A stretch of 48,982 nucleotides of DNA, from positions 1 through 48,982 of IMG/VR virus record IMGVR_UViG_3300018432_000018; one strand, 5' to 3'. The notes under the pieces are model-generated. The model ran no database searches, had not been told where the DNA came from, and was given only the letters and a program-made list of their open reading frames with translations. Positions 31,407 through 43,942 of the stretch are shown piece after piece (the first letter of the stretch is position 1; each line of letters starts with the position of its first letter). The position numbers and the translations under genes are program-made. The DNA comes from a virus.

Positions 31407-31684
31407 TTCCACTCCTCCTGTCCAGGGATGGTGCGGTTCAGGTGGATGACCTGCTCGGTCATGACGATGAACTCGCGCTCCGGGAACTCGGTCTGAAGTG
31501 GCCGGTCCTTGGCGACCTGCCAGCCATGGCGGAAGGCGGCGTACAGGAGTCCGTGGTCCAGCGCGCTCCGCGCCGGATAGCGGTCGAGCAGCCGTCGGGT
31601 CTTGCGGTTGACCCACCACGACACGACCAGCGAGATGGTGCAGACGAGAGCCGAGATGACGACCACCCAATCGGCCACCGTCAT
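31403..31684 (-). CDS. Membrane-anchored small protein
   Basis: 93 residues, GGAGGCTCAAGCCGTG upstream of the ATG at 31684. N-terminal membrane helix (VADWVVVISALVCTISLVVS) followed by a basic stop-transfer patch (NRKTRRLLDRYPARS) and a soluble helical domain. The cytoplasmic tail suggests it acts at the inner face of the membrane. Unknown function. Confidence 0.74.
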   Translation of the reverse strand: MTVADWVVVISALVCTISLVVSWWVNRKTRRLLDRYPARSALDHGLLYAAFRHGWQVAKDRPLQTEFPEREFIVMTEQVIHLNRTIPGQEEWK

Positions 31685-31917
31685 CACGGCTTGAGCCTCC
31701 GTATCAGCAGGAAGTTGCAGTGAGTGATGGTCGTCACGTTGCCGCACTCCTCACACTGACCCTGCCGGTACAGGACGTTCGGGATGGCCATGGTCTGCCG
31801 CTGCCCACAGGTGGAGCACGTCCACTTCTGGTACAGCACGTCCCCCCGTGGGACGAGCTCCTCGAAGCTCTTCAGGACCTCCTCGATGGGGTAGTCCGGC
31901 GCGTCAGACTTCGACAT
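31684..31917 (-). CDS. Zinc-ribbon protein, 77 residues
   Basis: Two CxxC pairs about 20 residues apart (TCSTCGQRQ and CEECGNVT) form a standard zinc ribbon after an acidic 30-residue lead. Likely binds nucleic acid or a protein partner. It overlaps the ADP-ribosyltransferase-like gene by 14 bases, so the two are probably co-expressed. Confidence 0.76.
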   Translation of the reverse strand: MSKSDAPDYPIEEVLKSFEELVPRGDVLYQKWTCSTCGQRQTMAIPNVLYRQGQCEECGNVTTITHCNFLLIRRLKP

Positions 31918-32653
31918 CAGTGGCCATCACATCGAAGGGGTTCACGATCACCTCGCTCTCGCCCCTCGCTGTGAGGTAGGCGTAGACATGCTTGCGCTTG
32001 ACCTTGGCGACGATGATGGCCGGGTTCGGTCGGTTCCTGACGCGGAGGGCCGCGCCATGAGCGAACTTCTCCGCCACGCTCTTGTCAAGGGACCATGCGA
32101 TGCCCACCGGCAACCTGTCCGGGTCCCTGCCGAACGTGTCATCGTCGAAGGCGTCCTGCCCCCGGTAGATGCGGAGCACCGCACCGGGCAACGGACGCCC
32201 GTCCGTGATGGGACGCCGCTTGTTGTGAAGCCACGCCTTGTGCCACATCGTCAGGAACCGGACATCGGTGTCGTCCGGATCACTGAACGCCCACAGCTCA
32301 GGGAGGATCTCGAACAGCTCCTCCTCGGTGCAGTACCCACGATCCTGCGCCCGCAGCGCGAAGTCCACCCGTCCGTACGAGCCGACGAAGTGCAGCGCCC
32401 GCTGGAAACTGACACCAGCCTCCAGCATCTTGTCGCTGCGCTCAGCGCTGACCAGATCGCCGGCCATGATGATGGCCGTGATGTACGGGAGGCTGGGGTC
32501 CTTGTCGAGGAGCTCCTGCGCCTTCCGTGTCCGTGGCTCCTCACGCTCAGCGAGAGCCTTGGGGTCATCGAATGGAACGGGCGGGAAGAAGGAGTCGACG
32601 AGGATGTCCTCGTCGCTCTTCTCCCTCTGCCCGGTGGCCGGGTTCGGGTCCAT
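31904..32653 (-). CDS. ADP-ribosyltransferase-like protein (R-S-E class)
   Basis: 249 residues, GGAGGCTCAACC upstream. The C-terminal half shows the three-part motif of NAD-dependent arginine-type ADP-ribosyltransferases: LRIYRGQD (R161 or R164, NAD site), GIAWSLDKSVAEKFA (S188, followed by the usual helix), and RGESEVIV (E232-x-E234, catalytic). The first 120 residues are helical and unrelated to anything I know. If active it would move ADP-ribose from NAD to a host or phage target, as T4 Alt/ModA/ModB do with host transcription and translation factors. Confidence 0.75.
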   Translation of the reverse strand: MDPNPATGQREKSDEDILVDSFFPPVPFDDPKALAEREEPRTRKAQELLDKDPSLPYITAIIMAGDLVSAERSDKMLEAGVSFQRALHFVGSYGRVDFALRAQDRGYCTEEELFEILPELWAFSDPDDTDVRFLTMWHKAWLHNKRRPITDGRPLPGAVLRIYRGQDAFDDDTFGRDPDRLPVGIAWSLDKSVAEKFAHGAALRVRNRPNPAIIVAKVKRKHVYAYLTARGESEVIVNPFDVMATDVEV

Positions 32654-32675
32654 GGTTGAGCCTCCTATGGGTGGG

Positions 32676-33461
32676 TCAGACGCGACCCGCCTTCCGTAGC
32701 ATCCGCCAGAGCGTGATGAACTCCTGCTCCATCGGACCTATCTTGGTCTCGCTGATGACTAGGTCGGCTAGGTCCTGACGGCCAGCCGCACGCAGAGCGT
32801 CCACCGCCCGGTGCAGATCCTCCTGCCCATTCACCAATGAGCGGAGCAGCGGCAGCTCTGCCAGCGGGTCCGCCGGGAATGGCGGCGGTGTCACCGCTGG
32901 CCGCTCCGCCGGAGCGATGCCTAGATGACTGAGCAGCGGTGTGGACGGTGGCGCTGGCTTCGGCTCCCGCTTGGGCTTCGGCGGCGCTGGTGTGTCCAGC
33001 ACCGTCGCGTCCACCCGATTGATCTTCGGCCCGTCCCGCTTCGGCTCGATGCCCATGCCCAGCGGCGTGACGAGGATCCGTACCGGGATACCGTCCGGGT
33101 GACTGCTGCCACCACCACGCTCACCCTGAGCACCTTGGCGACCGGGTGACTTGCTGGTGCTGAACCGGAGCAGCCCACGGTTCCGTAGGTCATACAGAGC
33201 GTGGGTCACATCGTGAGGGGTGATGCCACACGCCGCGCTGATGCTGCGGACGTTGCTGCCTGTCCATCCCTTGCGCCGGTGACCCATCCGGGCGGCTTCG
33301 CCCTGCGCGTCCTTGGCTGTCAGGGAGAACGGCCTGTCACCCTCGGCTCTGGCCCGTAGGTGAGCCATGATGCGAGCCTTCTGGCTGGCGTCGGCTGGTG
33401 TGTCTATCGGAGCCCCTATCCCATTGGGACGGGACGCTGGCTGTTGCTGAACCTCTGTCAT
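32676..33461 (-). CDS. Winged-helix DNA-binding protein
   Basis: 261 residues, GAGGAGGCTCTA upstream of the ATG. Winged-helix segment at about 60-105: WTGSNVRSISAACGITPHDV, recognition helix and wing HALYDLRNRGLLRFSTSK. The middle is disordered and Pro/Lys-rich (PAPPKPKREPKPAPPSTP); the C-terminus is helical. This looks like a regulator or replication-initiator type protein. It has its own promoter (33528-33542) and a leader hairpin, so it is probably expressed separately from the modification cassette. Confidence 0.75.
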   Translation of the reverse strand: MTEVQQQPASRPNGIGAPIDTPADASQKARIMAHLRARAEGDRPFSLTAKDAQGEAARMGHRRKGWTGSNVRSISAACGITPHDVTHALYDLRNRGLLRFSTSKSPGRQGAQGERGGGSSHPDGIPVRILVTPLGMGIEPKRDGPKINRVDATVLDTPAPPKPKREPKPAPPSTPLLSHLGIAPAERPAVTPPPFPADPLAELPLLRSLVNGQEDLHRAVDALRAAGRQDLADLVISETKIGPMEQEFITLWRMLRKAGRV

Positions 33462-33559: not shown

Positions 33560-34543
33560 TCACCCGACGGCTTCTTCGGCCATCTCCTGCACGGTCAGAT
33601 CGGCAAGGCCAGTGAACACCTTCCCCTGCTTTTCGGTCTGTTCGCGGGCTCGCTCTTGTTCCTCTTCCTGACTGCCGCACGCCGTGAGCTTGGTGCGGAA
33701 GTAGGACACGATGCTGATGCGCTCGACGCCGCACGTCTCACTGTGATCGAGACGCGGAGCGCCCGACCGAAACGCTCCCATCTGCTCACCGCAGACGTTG
33801 CACGTCATGGCCGTGTTCCCATGCCAGCGGTGAGCATCCATCAGGATCAGGTCACCGTGCTGCATGTCCACGGCGACCCGGTTCTCCACGAAGGTGAACA
33901 GGCCACCGCTGTAGGAGCCGCGCCGGAGCACGGCGAGGGTGCTGAACCCCTCGTCCAGATCACCGCTGTCGGTGTGAACACCCGTGGGGTACGAGTTGTT
34001 CACGGTGATGGTTGTGAACGGTGTGCCCTCGATGATCCAGTCCGGGTGCGTGTCCCTCACCTGCCGCATCTGGTTGGTCCATCGGTCGGGCACGTTCTCA
34101 GCGAAGTGACGCCCGATCAACTGGAACAGCGGGAACAGGCTCCGGTACTTGTTCCACTCCTTGCCGGACCACGCGGTCAGGCGACAGTAGCGGAACTGGC
34201 CTCCCGGGTCGATGCTCCCGATGATGGCGCTCGACACGTTCGGTGCATAGGTCACGGCTCCCTCTGCGTACCGCTTCTCCCGAGTGCCGCCGCTGGCGAG
34301 CCCTCGGTTGCTGCTGACGGTCTTCCTGAGCTCGTGGAGCACGTCGTAGGACCCGTCGAGGGTCTCACCCTTGAGGATCCCAGGAAGGTAGATGGCGAGC
34401 AGCGTGCCCGTGGTGTCCTTGACGATGGTGGGACCCACCAGCAGGATGTCGATGTCGGCGTTGCCGACGAGCTTCCCCTTCTTCTGCTCCAGATCCTCGG
34501 CGCTGATCTTGGTCCGCACCCGGACCTCACTGAACGCGGTCAC
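33560..34543 (-). CDS. TET/JBP-type Fe(II)/2-oxoglutarate DNA dioxygenase
   Basis: 327 residues, GTG start in a GTGA overlap with the glycosyltransferase gene. Double-stranded beta-helix motifs: metal ligands H190-x-D192 (SYPTGVHTDSGD), distal His H238 or H241 (DAHRWHGNTAM), and the 2-oxoglutarate-binding Arg R275 in VERISIVSYFR. The middle strands RRGSYSGGLFTFVENRVAVD fit the TET/JBP branch that oxidises methyl groups of 5-methylcytosine or thymine in DNA. Between the distal His and R275 is a putative zinc site (C248, C251, H267, C271). The C-terminus is charged (EEEQERAREQTEKQ). Confidence 0.87.
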   Translation of the reverse strand: MTAFSEVRVRTKISAEDLEQKKGKLVGNADIDILLVGPTIVKDTTGTLLAIYLPGILKGETLDGSYDVLHELRKTVSSNRGLASGGTREKRYAEGAVTYAPNVSSAIIGSIDPGGQFRYCRLTAWSGKEWNKYRSLFPLFQLIGRHFAENVPDRWTNQMRQVRDTHPDWIIEGTPFTTITVNNSYPTGVHTDSGDLDEGFSTLAVLRRGSYSGGLFTFVENRVAVDMQHGDLILMDAHRWHGNTAMTCNVCGEQMGAFRSGAPRLDHSETCGVERISIVSYFRTKLTACGSQEEEQERAREQTEKQGKVFTGLADLTVQEMAEEAVG

Positions 34544-35361
34544 TTCGCTACCTCATTGCCAGCCGTGTCGTAGGTCTTGCCCTTGCGCTGAGGCAGGAGC
34601 TTGAGCTCGTACTGACTGCTCGTCTCCTCGAACACCGGCTCACTGGTCAGTGTAGGGAAAAGTGCGTGAAGACGGTGAGCTCCCTCGCTCCTGGATACTT
34701 CCGTCCGATAGGTCTGCATCCCGCCGTGCTTGGCGTAGTAGTCAGCGTCGATGCAGACGTACCCGCACCTGATGACGCCACCGTGCTGGAGGTAGAAGCG
34801 GATGGTCCGCTCGTAGTCCTCCTTCTCGTCGATCACGGTCTGCGCTGGCGGGTCCTTGACGGTGAAGCCATAGAACCCACCCACGATGAGGCGCAGGTCG
34901 GTGGTGATGACCCGCTTCATGAAGAAGCCGTTGCTGATGGGATAGAGGCCGAACAGCGTGTCGTCATAGAGCGTGGCGACCCGCCGGAGTGTGCGGATGG
35001 TCATCGGCAGGTTGGCTGGCACGAGCTTCTTGTTCCTGTCGATGGTGAGGTAGCCCTTGATGTCGTCGTCCGTGCTGACGAGCTTCGTGCCCACCGGGTA
35101 CGAGCGGGCGATCAGGTTGCGGACGCCGCGCACGCAGAGCGTCTGCTCGCCTGTGTCCGCGAGGGTGTAGGTGCGAACGGTGATGCCAGCCTCGTCGCGG
35201 ACAGCGGCGCGGTAGGCATCCCCCTCCTCTTCTGCGACCCATACCTCCACCTTCTCGATGGAGCATCCCGCTGCTTTCAGCGAGGTGATGGTGCGCGCCA
35301 CGATGGTCTCGTGACGCCCACGGCTCGGGATGGTGAGCACGTCCCACGGTGCTGTGCTCAT
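34540..35361 (-). CDS. TET-associated-type glycosyltransferase
   Basis: 273 residues, ATG at 35361 in an ATGA overlap. GT-A-like features: start LTIPSRGRHETI, then TLCVRGVRNLIAR, the metal/nucleotide-sugar DDD at 98-100 (VSTDDDI), SNGFFMKR, an acidic EKEDYERTIRFYLQHGG at about 179-195 and a late YAKHGGMQTYR. This order matches glycosyltransferases found next to phage TET/JBP oxygenases, which put a sugar on oxidised DNA bases. Sugar donor and product are unknown. Confidence 0.82.
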   Translation of the reverse strand: MSTAPWDVLTIPSRGRHETIVARTITSLKAAGCSIEKVEVWVAEEEGDAYRAAVRDEAGITVRTYTLADTGEQTLCVRGVRNLIARSYPVGTKLVSTDDDIKGYLTIDRNKKLVPANLPMTIRTLRRVATLYDDTLFGLYPISNGFFMKRVITTDLRLIVGGFYGFTVKDPPAQTVIDEKEDYERTIRFYLQHGGVIRCGYVCIDADYYAKHGGMQTYRTEVSRSEGAHRLHALFPTLTSEPVFEETSSQYELKLLPQRKGKTYDTAGNEVAK

Positions 35362-35783
35362 GCGGGCACCGCCTCGTTGAGTGGCGTGGTCAGGTCGTGG
35401 GGCCGGACAGCACCCTCGTCGACCACGCATCTTCCAGCGGCGCTACCGCTCGGGATGGAGTACCTGCTGCGAACGAATGACCGTGCGCCCTTGCGCTTGA
35501 AGTAGGTGTCGATGGTCGGGTTCGGGTGGTTCTTGATGCCATGCTCACAGAACACGCCCACCAGCGCCGTCTCATCCCGGAACACATGCGTCAGCACGTG
35601 GAGCGGCAACGGAATGAGGACCGTGCGGATCTCCCCCGTGTCACGGTCGATGCTGGGGAACCCCTCCTCGTCGGTGGCGTTCACGCGCACGTCCTCGTAG
35701 CGGCCTACCCGGAGGCAGGAGCCACAGGCTGAGCACAGGACGTGTTGCGTGTCGGTGCAAACCTCCGGCTGGATGAAGCTCAT
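35358..35783 (-). CDS. Unknown protein of the modification cassette
   Basis: 141 residues, ATGA overlaps on both sides. N-terminal CTDTQHVLCSACGSCLRVG has five Cys within 20 residues (possible zinc or metal site), then YEDVRVN, EIRTVLIPLPLHVLTHVFRD and a basic segment TYFKRKGARSFVRS. No known family. The rigid gene order makes a role in base modification likely: DNA binding, a partner of the oxygenase, or a step after glycosylation. Confidence 0.72.
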   Translation of the reverse strand: MSFIQPEVCTDTQHVLCSACGSCLRVGRYEDVRVNATDEEGFPSIDRDTGEIRTVLIPLPLHVLTHVFRDETALVGVFCEHGIKNHPNPTIDTYFKRKGARSFVRSRYSIPSGSAAGRCVVDEGAVRPHDLTTPLNEAVPA

Positions 35784-36718
35784 GCTTCGCCGCCGAGGTC
35801 TTGCAGTCCGGGGAGCTCCTCGTAGGGGATGTCCGTGGGCCACAACGGCTCAGGTTCTGGATCAGGTGCCTTCACCTTCTCCACCTTGGGAATGAACCTG
35901 TCGATGCACCCGAGGATCACCGTGCGAGTGAAGGCAAGGTCGCTGATGCTGGTGACGAGCAGCCGGAGGTCGAGCATCGCGCTCCGCACCGCCATCTCCG
36001 TCGCCGTCAGCGGTGCGATCTCACCAGCGACGTTCTGCCCTCCCTGCTCCCATGCGCGCTGGCGCTTGACCGCCTCCAGCACGGTGTCGATGGTCCCCTT
36101 GGTGCCGAACGCCTTCCGCAGCTCCTGAACGCTGCTGGCGAAGTCGGCGTAGTCGTTCTTGCTGAACCGGAGCGGAACCTCGTTGAGCCGACCGCTCTCG
36201 CGGTGGGTCTCAGCCCGCTCCTTCACCTTGGCCTCGAACTCAGGATCCAACTGAGCGTAGTCCGCTTCGGTTGCGGCACCACTCAGGGTGGCGAGGCCCT
36301 CCAGCTCATCTTCCAGATCAGCCAGTTCCTCGTCATCCCACAGGGTGCCCATCAGGCCCGTCTCGTCGGACAGCCGACGGAGGCCGCTTGCGAGCTTCGC
36401 CTTGTCGTACCCTGCGAGGTCACTGGAGCGGTTGTCGTCGAGGAGGAATGCGTAGGCCTCCTCGTCGTCCATCTCCTGGAACACCATGGCCGCGTCAGGC
36501 CAGCCGATCTCCTTGGCTGCCGCCCACGTCCCGTTCCCCTTGACGATCCTCCCCGTGCTGGCTTGGACCACGATGGGAGCCCGCTGACCGTGGGTCAACA
36601 GGCTCTTCGTGATCTTGTCCAGCCGGTGCTTGCGCACGTTGTCAGGATGCGGCCGAGCATCCGCCAGTGGATGTCGGTACTGCTCCAACTCGGGTGCGAT
36701 GCTGCTCTTGACTGGCAC
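35780..36718 (-). CDS. ParB-like protein of the modification cassette
   Basis: 312 residues, GTG start with GGGAGGCTCTG upstream. ParB N-terminal domain at about 20-100: ARPHPDNVRKHRLDKITKSL, IVVQASTGRIVKGNGTWAAA (GNGTWxAA in place of the usual GxGRxxA), LLDDNRSSDLAGYD. The C-terminal half is acidic and helical, with a Pro/Glu-rich linker (KAPDPEPEPLWP). Solo ParB domains are frequent beside phage DNA-modification genes and in some cases act as nucleases or CTPases. First gene of the four-gene unit. Confidence 0.84.
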   Translation of the reverse strand: MPVKSSIAPELEQYRHPLADARPHPDNVRKHRLDKITKSLLTHGQRAPIVVQASTGRIVKGNGTWAAAKEIGWPDAAMVFQEMDDEEAYAFLLDDNRSSDLAGYDKAKLASGLRRLSDETGLMGTLWDDEELADLEDELEGLATLSGAATEADYAQLDPEFEAKVKERAETHRESGRLNEVPLRFSKNDYADFASSVQELRKAFGTKGTIDTVLEAVKRQRAWEQGGQNVAGEIAPLTATEMAVRSAMLDLRLLVTSISDLAFTRTVILGCIDRFIPKVEKVKAPDPEPEPLWPTDIPYEELPGLQDLGGEA

Positions 36719-38601: not shown

Positions 38602-38696
38602 TCGGGGCAGGTCAGGCGGAGCAAAACCTCCCCCTTGCGGACTACTTCCCACGTCCATGCCAGCGGGCACGTCGCGGGCGGCTTGGTCCTTGTCAT
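38529..38696 (-). CDS. Zinc-ribbon-like protein in overlapping frame
   Basis: 55 residues. ATG in an ATGA overlap with the RecT stop. Contains LTCPECGASGRKTV with one CxxC pair and another Cys near the N-terminus (PPATCPLAW). Its 3' half overlaps the N-terminal part of the next gene in a different frame. The overlap start and CPECG motif support it. Confidence 0.5.
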   Translation of the reverse strand: MTRTKPPATCPLAWTWEVVRKGEVLLRLTCPECGASGRKTVGRLPTLENRLMFHP

Positions 38697-39574
38697 CCCT
38701 CACCCTTGGCCTCCTCCGTCTTGCCCTCCGTGGCTGCGGACAGCGCCCGCTGACGGATGGCCTCCAGTGCCGGGTCAACCTTCTCGATGCGTGCCGTCAC
38801 GGTCTGCTCCCGCAGCTCATCAGCACGAGCGTCAGCAGCGAGCAGAGCATCCACGGCAGCGGCAGGGAGGCGCTTGCTCATGCGACGGAGCACCGTCTTC
38901 CGAGACATCTCCCCGTAGTTCGTGTCCCACGGGGTCTCCTTGCCGTACTTGGACTTCTTCTTCGTGGCTCCGTACCGATCCCGGATCACGTTGATCTCGG
39001 CCTCGGTCATCCACTCCACGATGCGCCGACCGCTCGGCATCCACGCGATGCCGTACACGCCCCGGTAGCCTCCGCTGCCGAGTTGACTGCCGTCTTCCTG
39101 CCGCTCGGGCAGCGCCGGGATGTGATGAACGTCTGGCTCGGAACCGAGGGTGAGCTTGAAGTCATCCTCATCATAGACGATCTGACAGTCGATGTCTTCG
39201 ACCATTCTTGAGTTTCTGATGCGCTTCAGATATCCGCGGTACATCGGCATGAACGTGGCCTTGCCGTCGTAGACGACGATCGTACCGTCCTCAGTCAGCG
39301 GCGTCAGGCCCATGGAAGCCGCCGTCTTGATGGCATCCAACAGGCTCATCGGCTCCGCATCTTGCAGGAGCTTCGTGTTCCGAGCCAGCGCGGTGAACAC
39401 CACCGCGAGGAACTGATCGGTGGTGGTCTTGTCGCCGCCCATCATGGCCCGGAAGGCACGCGCCACCGAGCCGTTCCCCTTGACAGCCTCGCTGATGGTG
39501 AGGTAGTTGCGTTCTGCGACCGAGATGCGCTGCTCCGGAGCCTTCTGCACACCCTTCTCATTGGGCTGGTTCAC
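38693..39574 (-). CDS. recT: RecT-family single-strand annealing protein
   Basis: 293 residues, GTG with a strong AAGGAGGACTC site, GTGA overlap upstream. The RecT pattern is clear: FLAVVFTALARNTKLLQDA, SLLDAIKTAASMGLTP, KATFMPMYRGYLKRIRNS and GYRGVYGIAWMPSGRR, ending in a charged tail. It anneals complementary single strands in recombination-dependent replication or repair. The partner exonuclease is encoded about 2 kb upstream in the same leftward run. Confidence 0.93.
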   Translation of the reverse strand: MNQPNEKGVQKAPEQRISVAERNYLTISEAVKGNGSVARAFRAMMGGDKTTTDQFLAVVFTALARNTKLLQDAEPMSLLDAIKTAASMGLTPLTEDGTIVVYDGKATFMPMYRGYLKRIRNSRMVEDIDCQIVYDEDDFKLTLGSEPDVHHIPALPERQEDGSQLGSGGYRGVYGIAWMPSGRRIVEWMTEAEINVIRDRYGATKKKSKYGKETPWDTNYGEMSRKTVLRRMSKRLPAAAVDALLAADARADELREQTVTARIEKVDPALEAIRQRALSAATEGKTEEAKGEG

Positions 39575-39798
39575 GAGTCCTCCTTCTTGGCCTTGGGGTA
39601 CGGAACCTTGGCCGGGTCGTCCCGCTTGTAGACTCCGAAGATGGTGACGTGCCCGCAGTACGAGCACTCCTCCACCTGCGGCTCCCGGAGGCGCACCGGC
39701 ATCCTGATCTTGACCTCGTCGCCATTGACCTCGCTCTCCAGTTGGAGCCAGCACTCCTCACAGATGGGCTGGGTCCACGACATGCGCGGTGCGGTCAC
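39571..39798 (-). CDS. Zinc-ribbon protein, 75 residues
   Basis: GTG at 39798 in a GTGA overlap (an ATG at 39783 gives 70 residues, WTQPICEECW start). Two CxxC pairs (CEEC and CSYC) about 30 residues apart; a basic C-terminus (KRDDPAKVPYPKAKKEDS). Common small actinophage protein; function unknown. Confidence 0.74.
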   Translation of the reverse strand: MTAPRMSWTQPICEECWLQLESEVNGDEVKIRMPVRLREPQVEECSYCGHVTIFGVYKRDDPAKVPYPKAKKEDS

Positions 39799-41154: not shown

Positions 41155-41513
41155 CTGTCTTCCTCCGCTGAGTACTCGATGGTGACGCTGCCACGAGCGT
41201 CGTCCCAGACCTGCTCGGCCTGACCCTTCTTCTTGCGGCTCTTGCTGTACCGCTCCTCGGTGGCGTCGAGAGAGTCGTACGCCTCATCCGGCGGGCTTTC
41301 ACGCCAGTCCTGCAAGAACATCCACGTCACGTTGTCGTGGCGGTCGTAGTGCATGGCTCCCTCGTGGTCGTTCGGCATGGAACACACGAGGCTGTAGACG
41401 TTCCGCCCGAACGCTTGGCGCTGCTCATCCGTGACGGTAGCGGAGACCTCGCAGACTGGGGGCTCCAGCTCAGTGAACCCATCGCCGATGATGACCGCCT
41501 CTTGGCTGGTCAT
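41151..41513 (-). CDS. Hypothetical protein, 120 residues
   Basis: ATGA overlaps with both neighbours. Acidic; VCSMPNDHEGAMHYDRHDNV is a Cys/His-rich loop of the kind seen in small actinophage proteins, followed by a Lys-rich helix (YSKSRKKKGQAEQVW). Directly downstream of the exonuclease gene; function unknown. Confidence 0.72.
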   Translation of the reverse strand: MTSQEAVIIGDGFTELEPPVCEVSATVTDEQRQAFGRNVYSLVCSMPNDHEGAMHYDRHDNVTWMFLQDWRESPPDEAYDSLDATEERYSKSRKKKGQAEQVWDDARGSVTIEYSAEEDR

Positions 41514-42469
41514 CCCTTCCTCCAGTTGAACTTGCGCTGTGGGTCGCGGGTGCTCATTGATTCCTCCTTCAGCCGAGCCAGCACGTCAGCAGGGATGCCC
41601 TGCTCCACGGCGAGCGCGGCCAGACCGAGGGCATACGCCTCGGGGTCGTACTGAGGGTTCGGGTTGTCTCGCTTCCACGTCACCACGCCGTTGTTGCCCT
41701 GAACTCCGGCGTTGTTCCCGATGAAGCGTTGGAGCCGTGCCTTGAGGGTGTCTTCCTTACGCTGAGCCTCCAGTCGCAGCTCACGGGCTGCGGCGTACTT
41801 CTCGATCAGCACGTCGATGTCCGGCGTGGCGGTGCGGAGCGTCCCATCGGTGTCCGCCGGGTACTCCGTCTTGAGGTCGTCGAGGTCTGCGAAGATCACG
41901 TCCGGCATCACTCCTGCCAGCACGTTCTCGTTCCAGAACTGGTCCGCCCGCGCCAGTGCCTCCTTGATGAACGCGTCGTCCCTGTCCACCAGCAGGGTCC
42001 GGTACTCGCCGAAGCCGAACAGCACTCCGACGAAGGTGATCTCCTTCTTCAAGCAGAGCATCTCGATCTGGCACTGGATCCAGACGTCCACCGGCACCAC
42101 GCTCGTCATGGGAGCGCCCCAGCCCGTGTCATCACGTCGGGTCTTGCACTCCAGCAGCCAACGCTCGCCGATGATGGCGTAGTCCGCGTGCGACGCGACG
42201 TGAGAGCGGTCTTGCGACCGGTAGAAGCCCCGCAACCTCCGGACTCGGTACCCTGTGTCCTCCATGAACAAACGGGCCACGGTGGGCTCTAGTTCGAGAC
42301 CGAGCCGAGCCGCCAGACTCATGGGTCGCGGTGGCTGCGGATCGACCTTCTCCAAGTAGACGCTTCTCGGGCTGCCCCATGGGGACAGCCCGAGGATCTT
42401 CGCCATGTCAGTGCTCGTGATGGCCGTGCGTCGTTCCGCGTGGAACTGCTCGTCATCGACGATTGGCAT
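41510..42469 (-). CDS. YqaJ/lambda-exo-type recombination exonuclease
   Basis: 319 residues. PD-(D/E)XK nuclease of the YqaJ family: FHAERRTAITSTDMAKILGL with WGSP, RLGLELEPTVARLF (E59/E61), D96 in HADYAI, E107-x-K109 in LLECKT, and VWIQCQIEML (Q132, Q134). Resects double-strand ends 5' to 3' so that RecT can anneal the single strands. Together they form a phage Red-like recombination system. Confidence 0.9.
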   Translation of the reverse strand: MPIVDDEQFHAERRTAITSTDMAKILGLSPWGSPRSVYLEKVDPQPPRPMSLAARLGLELEPTVARLFMEDTGYRVRRLRGFYRSQDRSHVASHADYAIIGERWLLECKTRRDDTGWGAPMTSVVPVDVWIQCQIEMLCLKKEITFVGVLFGFGEYRTLLVDRDDAFIKEALARADQFWNENVLAGVMPDVIFADLDDLKTEYPADTDGTLRTATPDIDVLIEKYAAARELRLEAQRKEDTLKARLQRFIGNNAGVQGNNGVVTWKRDNPNPQYDPEAYALGLAALAVEQGIPADVLARLKEESMSTRDPQRKFNWRKG

Positions 42470-42814: not shown

Positions 42815-43942
42815 TCAGGCGGTGGCGGGTGCCGCCTCTTCCTTGGGCTCCGGCTGAGGGACGAGCGCCTCGGCTGCCGTCAGGGCCTCCTGCGTCGCGT
42901 CGAGCCGCTCCTGGATGAGCGCCGCCGCTTCGGCGAGGCTGTCCCGGTACTCCCGGAGGCCATCCAGACCCTTGGGCCACGGCTTGCCGGACTGGAGCAT
43001 GGCCTTGACCACGTCCGGGAGCTTGTTCCGTGCCGCCCGGGGCGGTGCCTGACGGATGGACTGGATCGCCTCGTGGAGCTGCCGTGGGAGGACATCCCCC
43101 GGCGTGTGCATGGGCTTGACCGGAAGCCCTTCCCGAGCCTCCCCATTGACGGTGGTGTCCTCTTCGGCAGCCACCGCCTCCTCGCGCTCCTCGAGGATCC
43201 GGAGCGCACCCTTCAAGGTGATCTCCTTGTTCTCCATGGCATCCGCCAGATCCGGAGCGTGGGTGCGCAGCCGCTGGATGTCGTGCTCCTTGGCCCGCTG
43301 GTCCTCGCTCTTGAGCGACTTGGCTGCTGCCTTGGGGGTCATCACCCCGGACTTGACCTTGTCGTGGAGCTCCGTGTCCCGCATGATGGCCGTGGCTTGC
43401 GTGGTGGAGAGCTCGCCGTCCTTGATGGCCTTCGCCAGTTCGGGAGCCTTCTTCATCAAGCCAGCCGCCTCATCGACGACCGTCTTGCCGACGCCGATCT
43501 TGTCGGCTGCCTCCTGAGCGGACGACTTGCCCTCTTCGGCTGCCACCCCGCTCTTGATGCGCTCCGCTGCCTCCTCGCGGATCTTGAGCCATGTGGGCGA
43601 CATGACGAGCAACATGGCCCGCTGGCTCTTGCTGAGGTGACGGCGGCTGGCGGCTGCCAGGATCATGTAGTCATAGGGATCGGGCGGATCGATGACCCGG
43701 ACCGGCACTGACTGGATGCCGAGGTTCATGGCGATCTGCCACCGGGTACGGCCATCAACGATGGTGCCGTCCCCGAGGATCTCGATCGGGACCTGGATGC
43801 CTCGCTGGCTGATGTCCAGCACCATCTCATCCCACTGGTCCTCGTCCGGCGTGGGCACGTCCTCCGCCTTGGCGTGGGGGCGCAGATCCGACGTGGGACG
43901 CTCCTGGACGGGGGTGGGCTTGATCTTCGTGTCTGTTGCCAT
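42815..43942 (-). CDS. ParB/Spo0J-like protein
   Basis: 375 residues, GGAGGCTCACTCAC upstream. ParB N-domain at about 10-105: ERPTSDLRPHAKAEDVPTPD, RGIQVPIEILGDGTIVDGRT, RWQIAMNLGIQSVPVRVI, and a central helical domain with AASRRHLSKSQRAML. A long helical/coiled-coil region and an Ala/Glu tail follow. Unlike the cassette ParB it keeps the usual DGRTRWQIA motif. Could bind and organise phage DNA or regulate transcription; a partition role is unlikely without a ParA. Confidence 0.84.
   Translation of the reverse strand: MATDTKIKPTPVQERPTSDLRPHAKAEDVPTPDEDQWDEMVLDISQRGIQVPIEILGDGTIVDGRTRWQIAMNLGIQSVPVRVIDPPDPYDYMILAAASRRHLSKSQRAMLLVMSPTWLKIREEAAERIKSGVAAEEGKSSAQEAADKIGVGKTVVDEAAGLMKKAPELAKAIKDGELSTTQATAIMRDTELHDKVKSGVMTPKAAAKSLKSEDQRAKEHDIQRLRTHAPDLADAMENKEITLKGALRILEEREEAVAAEEDTTVNGEAREGLPVKPMHTPGDVLPRQLHEAIQSIRQAPPRAARNKLPDVVKAMLQSGKPWPKGLDGLREYRDSLAEAAALIQERLDATQEALTAAEALVPQPEPKEEAAPATA

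Follow-up and report, generated by a model that had tools for sequence, protein, structure and literature searches.

The best-studied phage ADP-ribosyltransferases (ARTs), known to re-tune host transcription or translation, are those of T4. In ModB, R73-G74 is the counterpart of the YRG motif I described below, and mutation there inactivates the enzyme (PMC10468400). The protein presented here resembles T4 ModA and ModB in being a stand-alone product of 200-250 amino acids from an early region, and in carrying x-R-G, S-x-S/T with A-x-x-F-A, and E-x-E in the same order. It differs from them in its N-terminal region, in a shorter spacing from motif II to E-x-E, in having Ala in place of the first Ser of motif II, and in belonging to a phage family without a Pfam match. 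VIP2-like and MuF-fused ARTs are described in actinophages (PMC7302621, PMC10586128); these also belong to the ART superfamily but are found among virion proteins or fused to them, unlike the gene studied here. We propose, at a probability of about 0.6, that this gene encodes a stand-alone R-S-E-type ART belonging, as a divergent member, to PHROG 4776. The enzyme would modify a host macromolecule and would be synthesised within the infected cell, not brought in by the virion.

The window, i.e., the whole stretch of DNA analysed, comes from IMG/VR; this virus record is 48,982 bases long with 65.3% GC. The source virus is likely an actinophage, since many of the best terminase matches, at about 30% identity, were to actinobacterial phages. 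Genes for terminase, portal, capsid, tape measure and tail proteins occupy the plus strand in the first 20 kb of the window. The minus strand carries the ART gene together with RecE, RecT, two ParB-like genes and one glycosyltransferase-like gene. The ART gene sits there in a leftward non-structural run, away from the virion genes and without a MuF fusion, so the fusion to or position among virion genes that marks virion delivery of the Alt/VIP2 kind was not found in the window. This non-structural placement holds for the window and not for all members, the family gene being near the terminase genes in the relatives L152 and Octobien14. The coordinates of the features are given in Table 1. The original prediction had proposed an open reading frame here without stating its strand; the frame is real and is read from the minus strand, with an ATG behind a Shine-Dalgarno sequence, and the plus-strand frame over this interval, which is a different protein, was rejected. 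No PHROG match was obtained for the upstream ORF. The overlapping 77-residue protein contains C-x-x-C twice, and tblastn gave zero homologues of it among 50,697 phage records; its gene and the ART gene are likely co-expressed. Elsewhere on the minus strand, a glycosyltransferase-like gene within 33563-35430 matched PHROG 25200 (E 4e-24) and, weakly, the T4-type glucosyltransferase family (E 1.5e-4). The gene adjoining it in the same interval matched PHROG 24024, of unknown function (E 6e-51), and DNA sugar modification is possible. The two ParB-like genes, separate genes in one phage, are located at 35783-36718 and 42818-43942, with RecT (38696-39754) and RecE (41513-42469) between them, all on the minus strand.

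Table 1. Features of the putative ADP-ribosyltransferase locus in the window.
Feature	Coordinates	Strand	Remarks
Putative phage ADP-ribosyltransferase ORF (PHROG 4776 family)	31904..32653	-	249 aa
Shine-Dalgarno AGGAGG (exact)	32661..32666	-	7 nt 5' of ATG, read from sequence
Upstream ORF	32676..33461	-	same leftward run; stop 22 nt before ART start
Zinc-ribbon-like ORF, 77 aa	about 31684..31917	-	starts inside the 3' end of the ART gene (14-nt overlap)
All-helical N-terminal region, residues 1-150 (predicted)	32204..32653	-	AlphaFold2 pLDDT 86.4
Helices at alpha-lobe position, residues 95-148 (predicted)	32210..32371	-	VIA alignments
ART-like beta core, residues 156-249 (predicted)	31907..32188	-	AlphaFold2 and VIA
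Motif I, Y163-R164-G165	32159..32167	-	R164 on strand 159-166
Motif II, A186-W187-S188-L-D-(3)-A194-(2)-F197-A198	32060..32098	-	Ala in place of first Ser
Motif III, R230-G-E232-S-E234	31952..31966	-	E-x-E on turn before strand 234-237

The 249-residue protein carries LRIYRG (160-165), AWSLDKSVAEKFA (186-198) and RGESEV (230-235), in the order originally claimed. Their occurrence is more than chance because a profile of 56 other members matched residues 160-246 of the window protein (E 1e-16), because PHROG 4776 matched it as well, and because the residues concerned include invariant ones. PHROG 4776, a family of unknown function, matched the protein over its C-terminal 72 residues only (E 6.4e-11), and all 57 of the 57 aligned members matched this PHROG. 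Y163, R164, G165, W187, A194, F197, A198, E232, E234 and P239 were invariant in 13 of 13 aligned members, comprising cultured actinobacterial, proteobacterial and firmicute phages and IMG/VR sequences, which were chosen without a motif pattern except for tool-derived conserved peptides in the case of three members. The pattern scans by which further members were found required the W, D, A and F-A of motif II, and the conservation of those letters is therefore partly built in; one scan also required T and a second W, the other S or T at position 188. Neither scan pattern contained the first Ser, YRG or E-x-E, while the regular expression used for the residue counts did require RG. At least 120 stretches came from the first scan; 111 of these matched the family at E<1e-3, and 103 still did so at E<1e-10. 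Of the 151 distinct members fitting the motif pattern, 146 have E-x-E; inspected by eye, four of the remaining five have it too and the fifth ends at a contig end. Five of 156 members fell outside the pattern and were left out of the residue counts. Two members, L215 and L104, have Q in place of the Arg of motif I.

With the window protein as tblastn query, 50 of the 50,697 phage records were matched, and the alignments were confined to the C-terminal part, 29-41% of the protein. Firecracker gp82 as query matched 108 of these records, with an alignment spanning 80% or more of the query in 103; the 108 are from phages of Mycobacterium (102), Gordonia (2), Lysinibacillus (2), Ruegeria (1) and Mesorhizobium (1). 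Among the 60 of these 108 matches listed, the annotation was 'hypothetical protein', bar one 'mRNA catabolic process'. The C-terminal domain is what makes the family, and in most members a helical region of about 150 residues precedes it. This architecture of about 240 amino acids, a helical N-terminal part followed by the domain, is found in 102 records of mycobacteriophages and two of Gordonia phages, although unannotated, and the original statement that no described actinophage example with this N-terminal domain was known did not hold for the family. One of these family members is LeBron gp117 (245 aa; locus L003), which aligned to the window protein by BLASTP at 31 of 89 positions (E 6e-10). 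Three bacterial MAG loci were obtained by a genome-collection scan. Weak matches to the C-terminal domain were also seen in 22 plasmid records, 20 of them from Agrobacterium and 20 of the 22 predicted conjugative; these plasmid relatives were annotated as hypothetical among the matches listed. Sequence searches of Pfam, NCBIfam, PADLOC and PDB recognised no ART. We found no literature naming the PHROG 4776 family as ARTs, and the supplementary family lists of PMC9503650 may include members.

When the family was compared with eight T4 Mod-family proteins as profiles, the score was 28.8 (P 0.0016), a value reached by none of 150 column-shuffled profiles (mean 12.8, sd 2.2, maximum 23.6). In hhalign the probability was 15.8% over 29 columns only, with motifs I and II in register and motif III outside, and the E-x-E of motif III was still unaligned in global mode. 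The aligned Mod counterparts were the R-G of motif I and S-W-T-x-D-x-x-x-A-x-W-F-A of motif II.

The AlphaFold2 model of the window protein (pLDDT 82.9, pTM 0.70) has the strand order of an ART, with strands at residues 159-166, 186-188, 212-219, 223-227, 234-237 and 243-248, and the invariant residues fall on this core; its A-W-S turn leads into the A-x-x-F-A helix. By VIA structural alignment, residues 149-249 matched solved ADP-ribosyltransferases. By title, 49 of the 50 matches listed belong to the ART superfamily, in seven different families and with Z from 5.4 to 7.8; since a Z of 7-8 can be background according to the tool, the fold call rests on the agreement across families together with the motifs. 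KptA/Tpt1, TreTu/TreX, Vis, ExoS/T, diphtheria toxin, PARPs and ART2.2 are among the matches, and the fiftieth is the SAIP catalytic domain, whose class is not evident from its title. The split beta sheet with an NAD cleft, which defines the ART fold, is present in the predicted model as judged by the agreement of the VIA matches. A Foldseek search of the whole model against PDB gave nothing significant (best E 0.056). Weak structural matches of the model in BFVD include several RIIB lysis-inhibition proteins (E 0.25-0.5). Taken together, the predicted structure, the profile similarity to T4 Mod and the conserved motifs support an ART-like fold for the C-terminal part. The structural comparison with known ARTs that had been suggested as a check gave an ART-like fold. 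The assignment as an NAD-dependent, arginine-type ART was supported in part, as far as the ART-like fold goes, its arginine-type label being a prediction from E-x-E.

The nearest solved folds by Z were those of the KptA/Tpt1 RNA 2'-phosphotransferases; KptA belongs to the H-H-h clade. An enzyme of ART fold might also act without transfer to a host protein, by hydrolysing NAD+ or by modifying a nucleic acid or a small molecule. ART folds carry out all such reactions, and ARTs acting on RNA or DNA, as well as RES-type NADases of phages, have been reported (PMC9503650, PMC12340436), but we regard this reading as rather unlikely for the window protein, as its R, S/T turn and E-x-E follow the pattern of the R-S-E clade, not that of H-H-h (clades according to PMC9503650), and NADase ARTs are under-represented in viruses according to the same source.

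Modelled alone, the N-terminal region folded into eight helices. It had no confident match in PDB (Foldseek best E 2.1; VIA best Z 5.4 with rmsd 8.1), and a TPR/HAT-like fold was rejected on these VIA values; Pumilio matches of the region were taken as chance (E 0.024 at best, 0.45 with more members). The original prediction had called this part a novel helical domain of 120 residues. It is indeed predicted to be all-helical, over about 150 residues, and tblastn with these found nothing in cultured phages; its novelty is reduced by three IMG/VR relatives, L201, L148 and L152, which share it (E 1e-25, 1e-23 and 1e-18). In comparison with LeBron gp117, Firecracker gp82 and Catdawg gp78, all of PHROG 4776, the N-terminal part of the window protein is strongly divergent. 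A family signature, (H)ERPYR ... W-x-D-S-E-N, could be aligned to window residues 95-126 (G-S-Y-x-R, W121-x-x-S-D125). The score of this alignment for the single sequence was weak (1.5 bits, a value that 22 of 2000 shuffles attained), and a four-sequence N-terminal profile scored 18.8, reached by 0 of 200 shuffles (maximum 18.0). Judged from these alignments, the region is probably a divergent form of the helical region of the whole family. In some members (L102, L126, L130, L028, L062, L090 and similar) the C-terminal domain is kept and the N-terminal regions are quite different; because of such strong differences the region may vary with the target.

Several VIA alignments reached into the helices, i.e., those with ART2.2 (model residues 95-249), Vis (109-248), and ExoS and ExoT (109-249), so that the extent shared with these enzymes runs from the helical part through the beta core, at 12-17% identity and Z 5.5-6.2. 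In canonical R-S-E ARTs an alpha-lobe lies ahead of the beta core. In such enzymes the lobe binds NAD (PMC6628389). Because the four matches start at residue 95 or 109, the last third of the N-terminal region in the model is probably this lobe, while helices 14-90, which the phage protein has in addition, would be the family's own.

Two marks of the R-S-E clade are seen in the window protein, namely the motif I Arg on the first strand (R164) and the E-x-E before the fifth strand, where the clade has E-x-E or Q-x-E. The third, a Ser opening the S-T-S-type motif II, is present in the family and replaced by A186 in the window, and the 'full R-S-E motif set' originally reported is for this reason incomplete. 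The first Ser of the family S-W-T/S aligns with the first Ser of S-A-S in ModA, and Ser188 corresponds to the second position. Ser occupies the first position in 145 of the 151 fitted members and Ala in six, the window being counted once (as locus L001). Ala186 is common to the window and its relatives L201, L148 and L152, and all four have kept Ser or Thr at 188, the equivalents of R164 and E232/E234, and the A-x-x-F-A helix. As the family has the first Ser and the window branch does not, we describe the window protein as R-S-E-like and not as a canonical member; from its residues, it would work like an R-S-E enzyme within a family of such enzymes. Either the branch uses the second position of motif II, or its enzyme is weakened. 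An ART that in these four members is weak or inactive and retained for binding would agree with the rare Ala, since the first Ser is the conserved one in a solved structure, where the second is replaced by Thr (PMC5310789), and the Ser of the STS motif is critical for NAD binding (PMC6628389). We consider such decay improbable because the Arg, the E-x-E and the A-x-x-F-A helix, as well as Ser or Thr at 188, are kept in all four, and Ala, being small, would leave NAD unblocked.

Published data exist for some members of the family. Overexpression of LeBron gp117, listed as NKF, reduced colony size in M. smegmatis, with the mildest toxic score of a systematic screen (PMC13148394). The phenotype is not specific, as 38 or 39 of the 122 or 123 genes in that screen were toxic (PMC13148394). 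Catdawg gp78, whose coordinates (49266-48541) are those of the family member, was detected in lysate by mass spectrometry with few peptides (PMC4351075), and the virion proteins of the related phage Corndog, twice-banded, came from genes 34-67 and gp13 (PMC4351075). The data on these three phages are consistent with synthesis of the protein during infection.

At 82 representative loci, no family of neighbouring genes (BLAST E 1e-6) recurred in more than four, and no conserved adjacent antitoxin, as expected of type II toxin-antitoxin ARTs, was found by the same comparison. Because no neighbour family recurs more widely, the enzyme would appear to work without a fixed partner detectable by BLAST. 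Among the compared loci, the window and its three nearest relatives have only the ART gene in common, two further plus-strand matches between them being a shadow ORF over that gene. A phage-borne toxin-antitoxin pair or superinfection-exclusion toxin, with the zinc-ribbon ORF as partner, is suggested by the overlap of the two genes and by the mild toxicity of LeBron gp117 (PMC13148394), but is very unlikely given these comparisons, even if small antitoxins that change fast could escape BLAST at 1e-6.

The preferred reading, an R-S-E-type ART acting on a host macromolecule, may be outlined as follows. NAD+ would lie in the cleft, with R164 holding its phosphate side and S188, perhaps together with the backbone at 186, replacing the usual Ser. 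E234 would drive the loss of nicotinamide, and E232 would favour arginine as acceptor, by analogy with other E-x-E enzymes. The helical region would supply the NAD-binding alpha-lobe and pick the target. From the position of the gene, the protein would be expressed in the infected cell from the leftward run, like ModA and ModB, and not injected like Alt. The putative enzyme would then slow or reprogram the host through the modified macromolecule, a role similar to that of ModA and ModB.

Phage ARTs as a kind are already known; new here are a family outside the current ART models, its own helical region, and a branch without the first Ser. Tentatively, and with less confidence than for the window protein itself, PHROG 4776 may represent unrecognised and very widespread host-modifying phage ARTs that occur in at least 100 mycobacteriophage records and choose their target by a helical region of their own; the window branch would use the second position of motif II instead of the first Ser. 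If active, they would provide an enzyme with a measured effect on growth, available from the well-studied mycobacteriophages LeBron, Firecracker and Catdawg, and a predicted function for PHROG 4776 and many 'hypothetical' proteins. They would also offer a route to the mycobacterial targets that phages attack.
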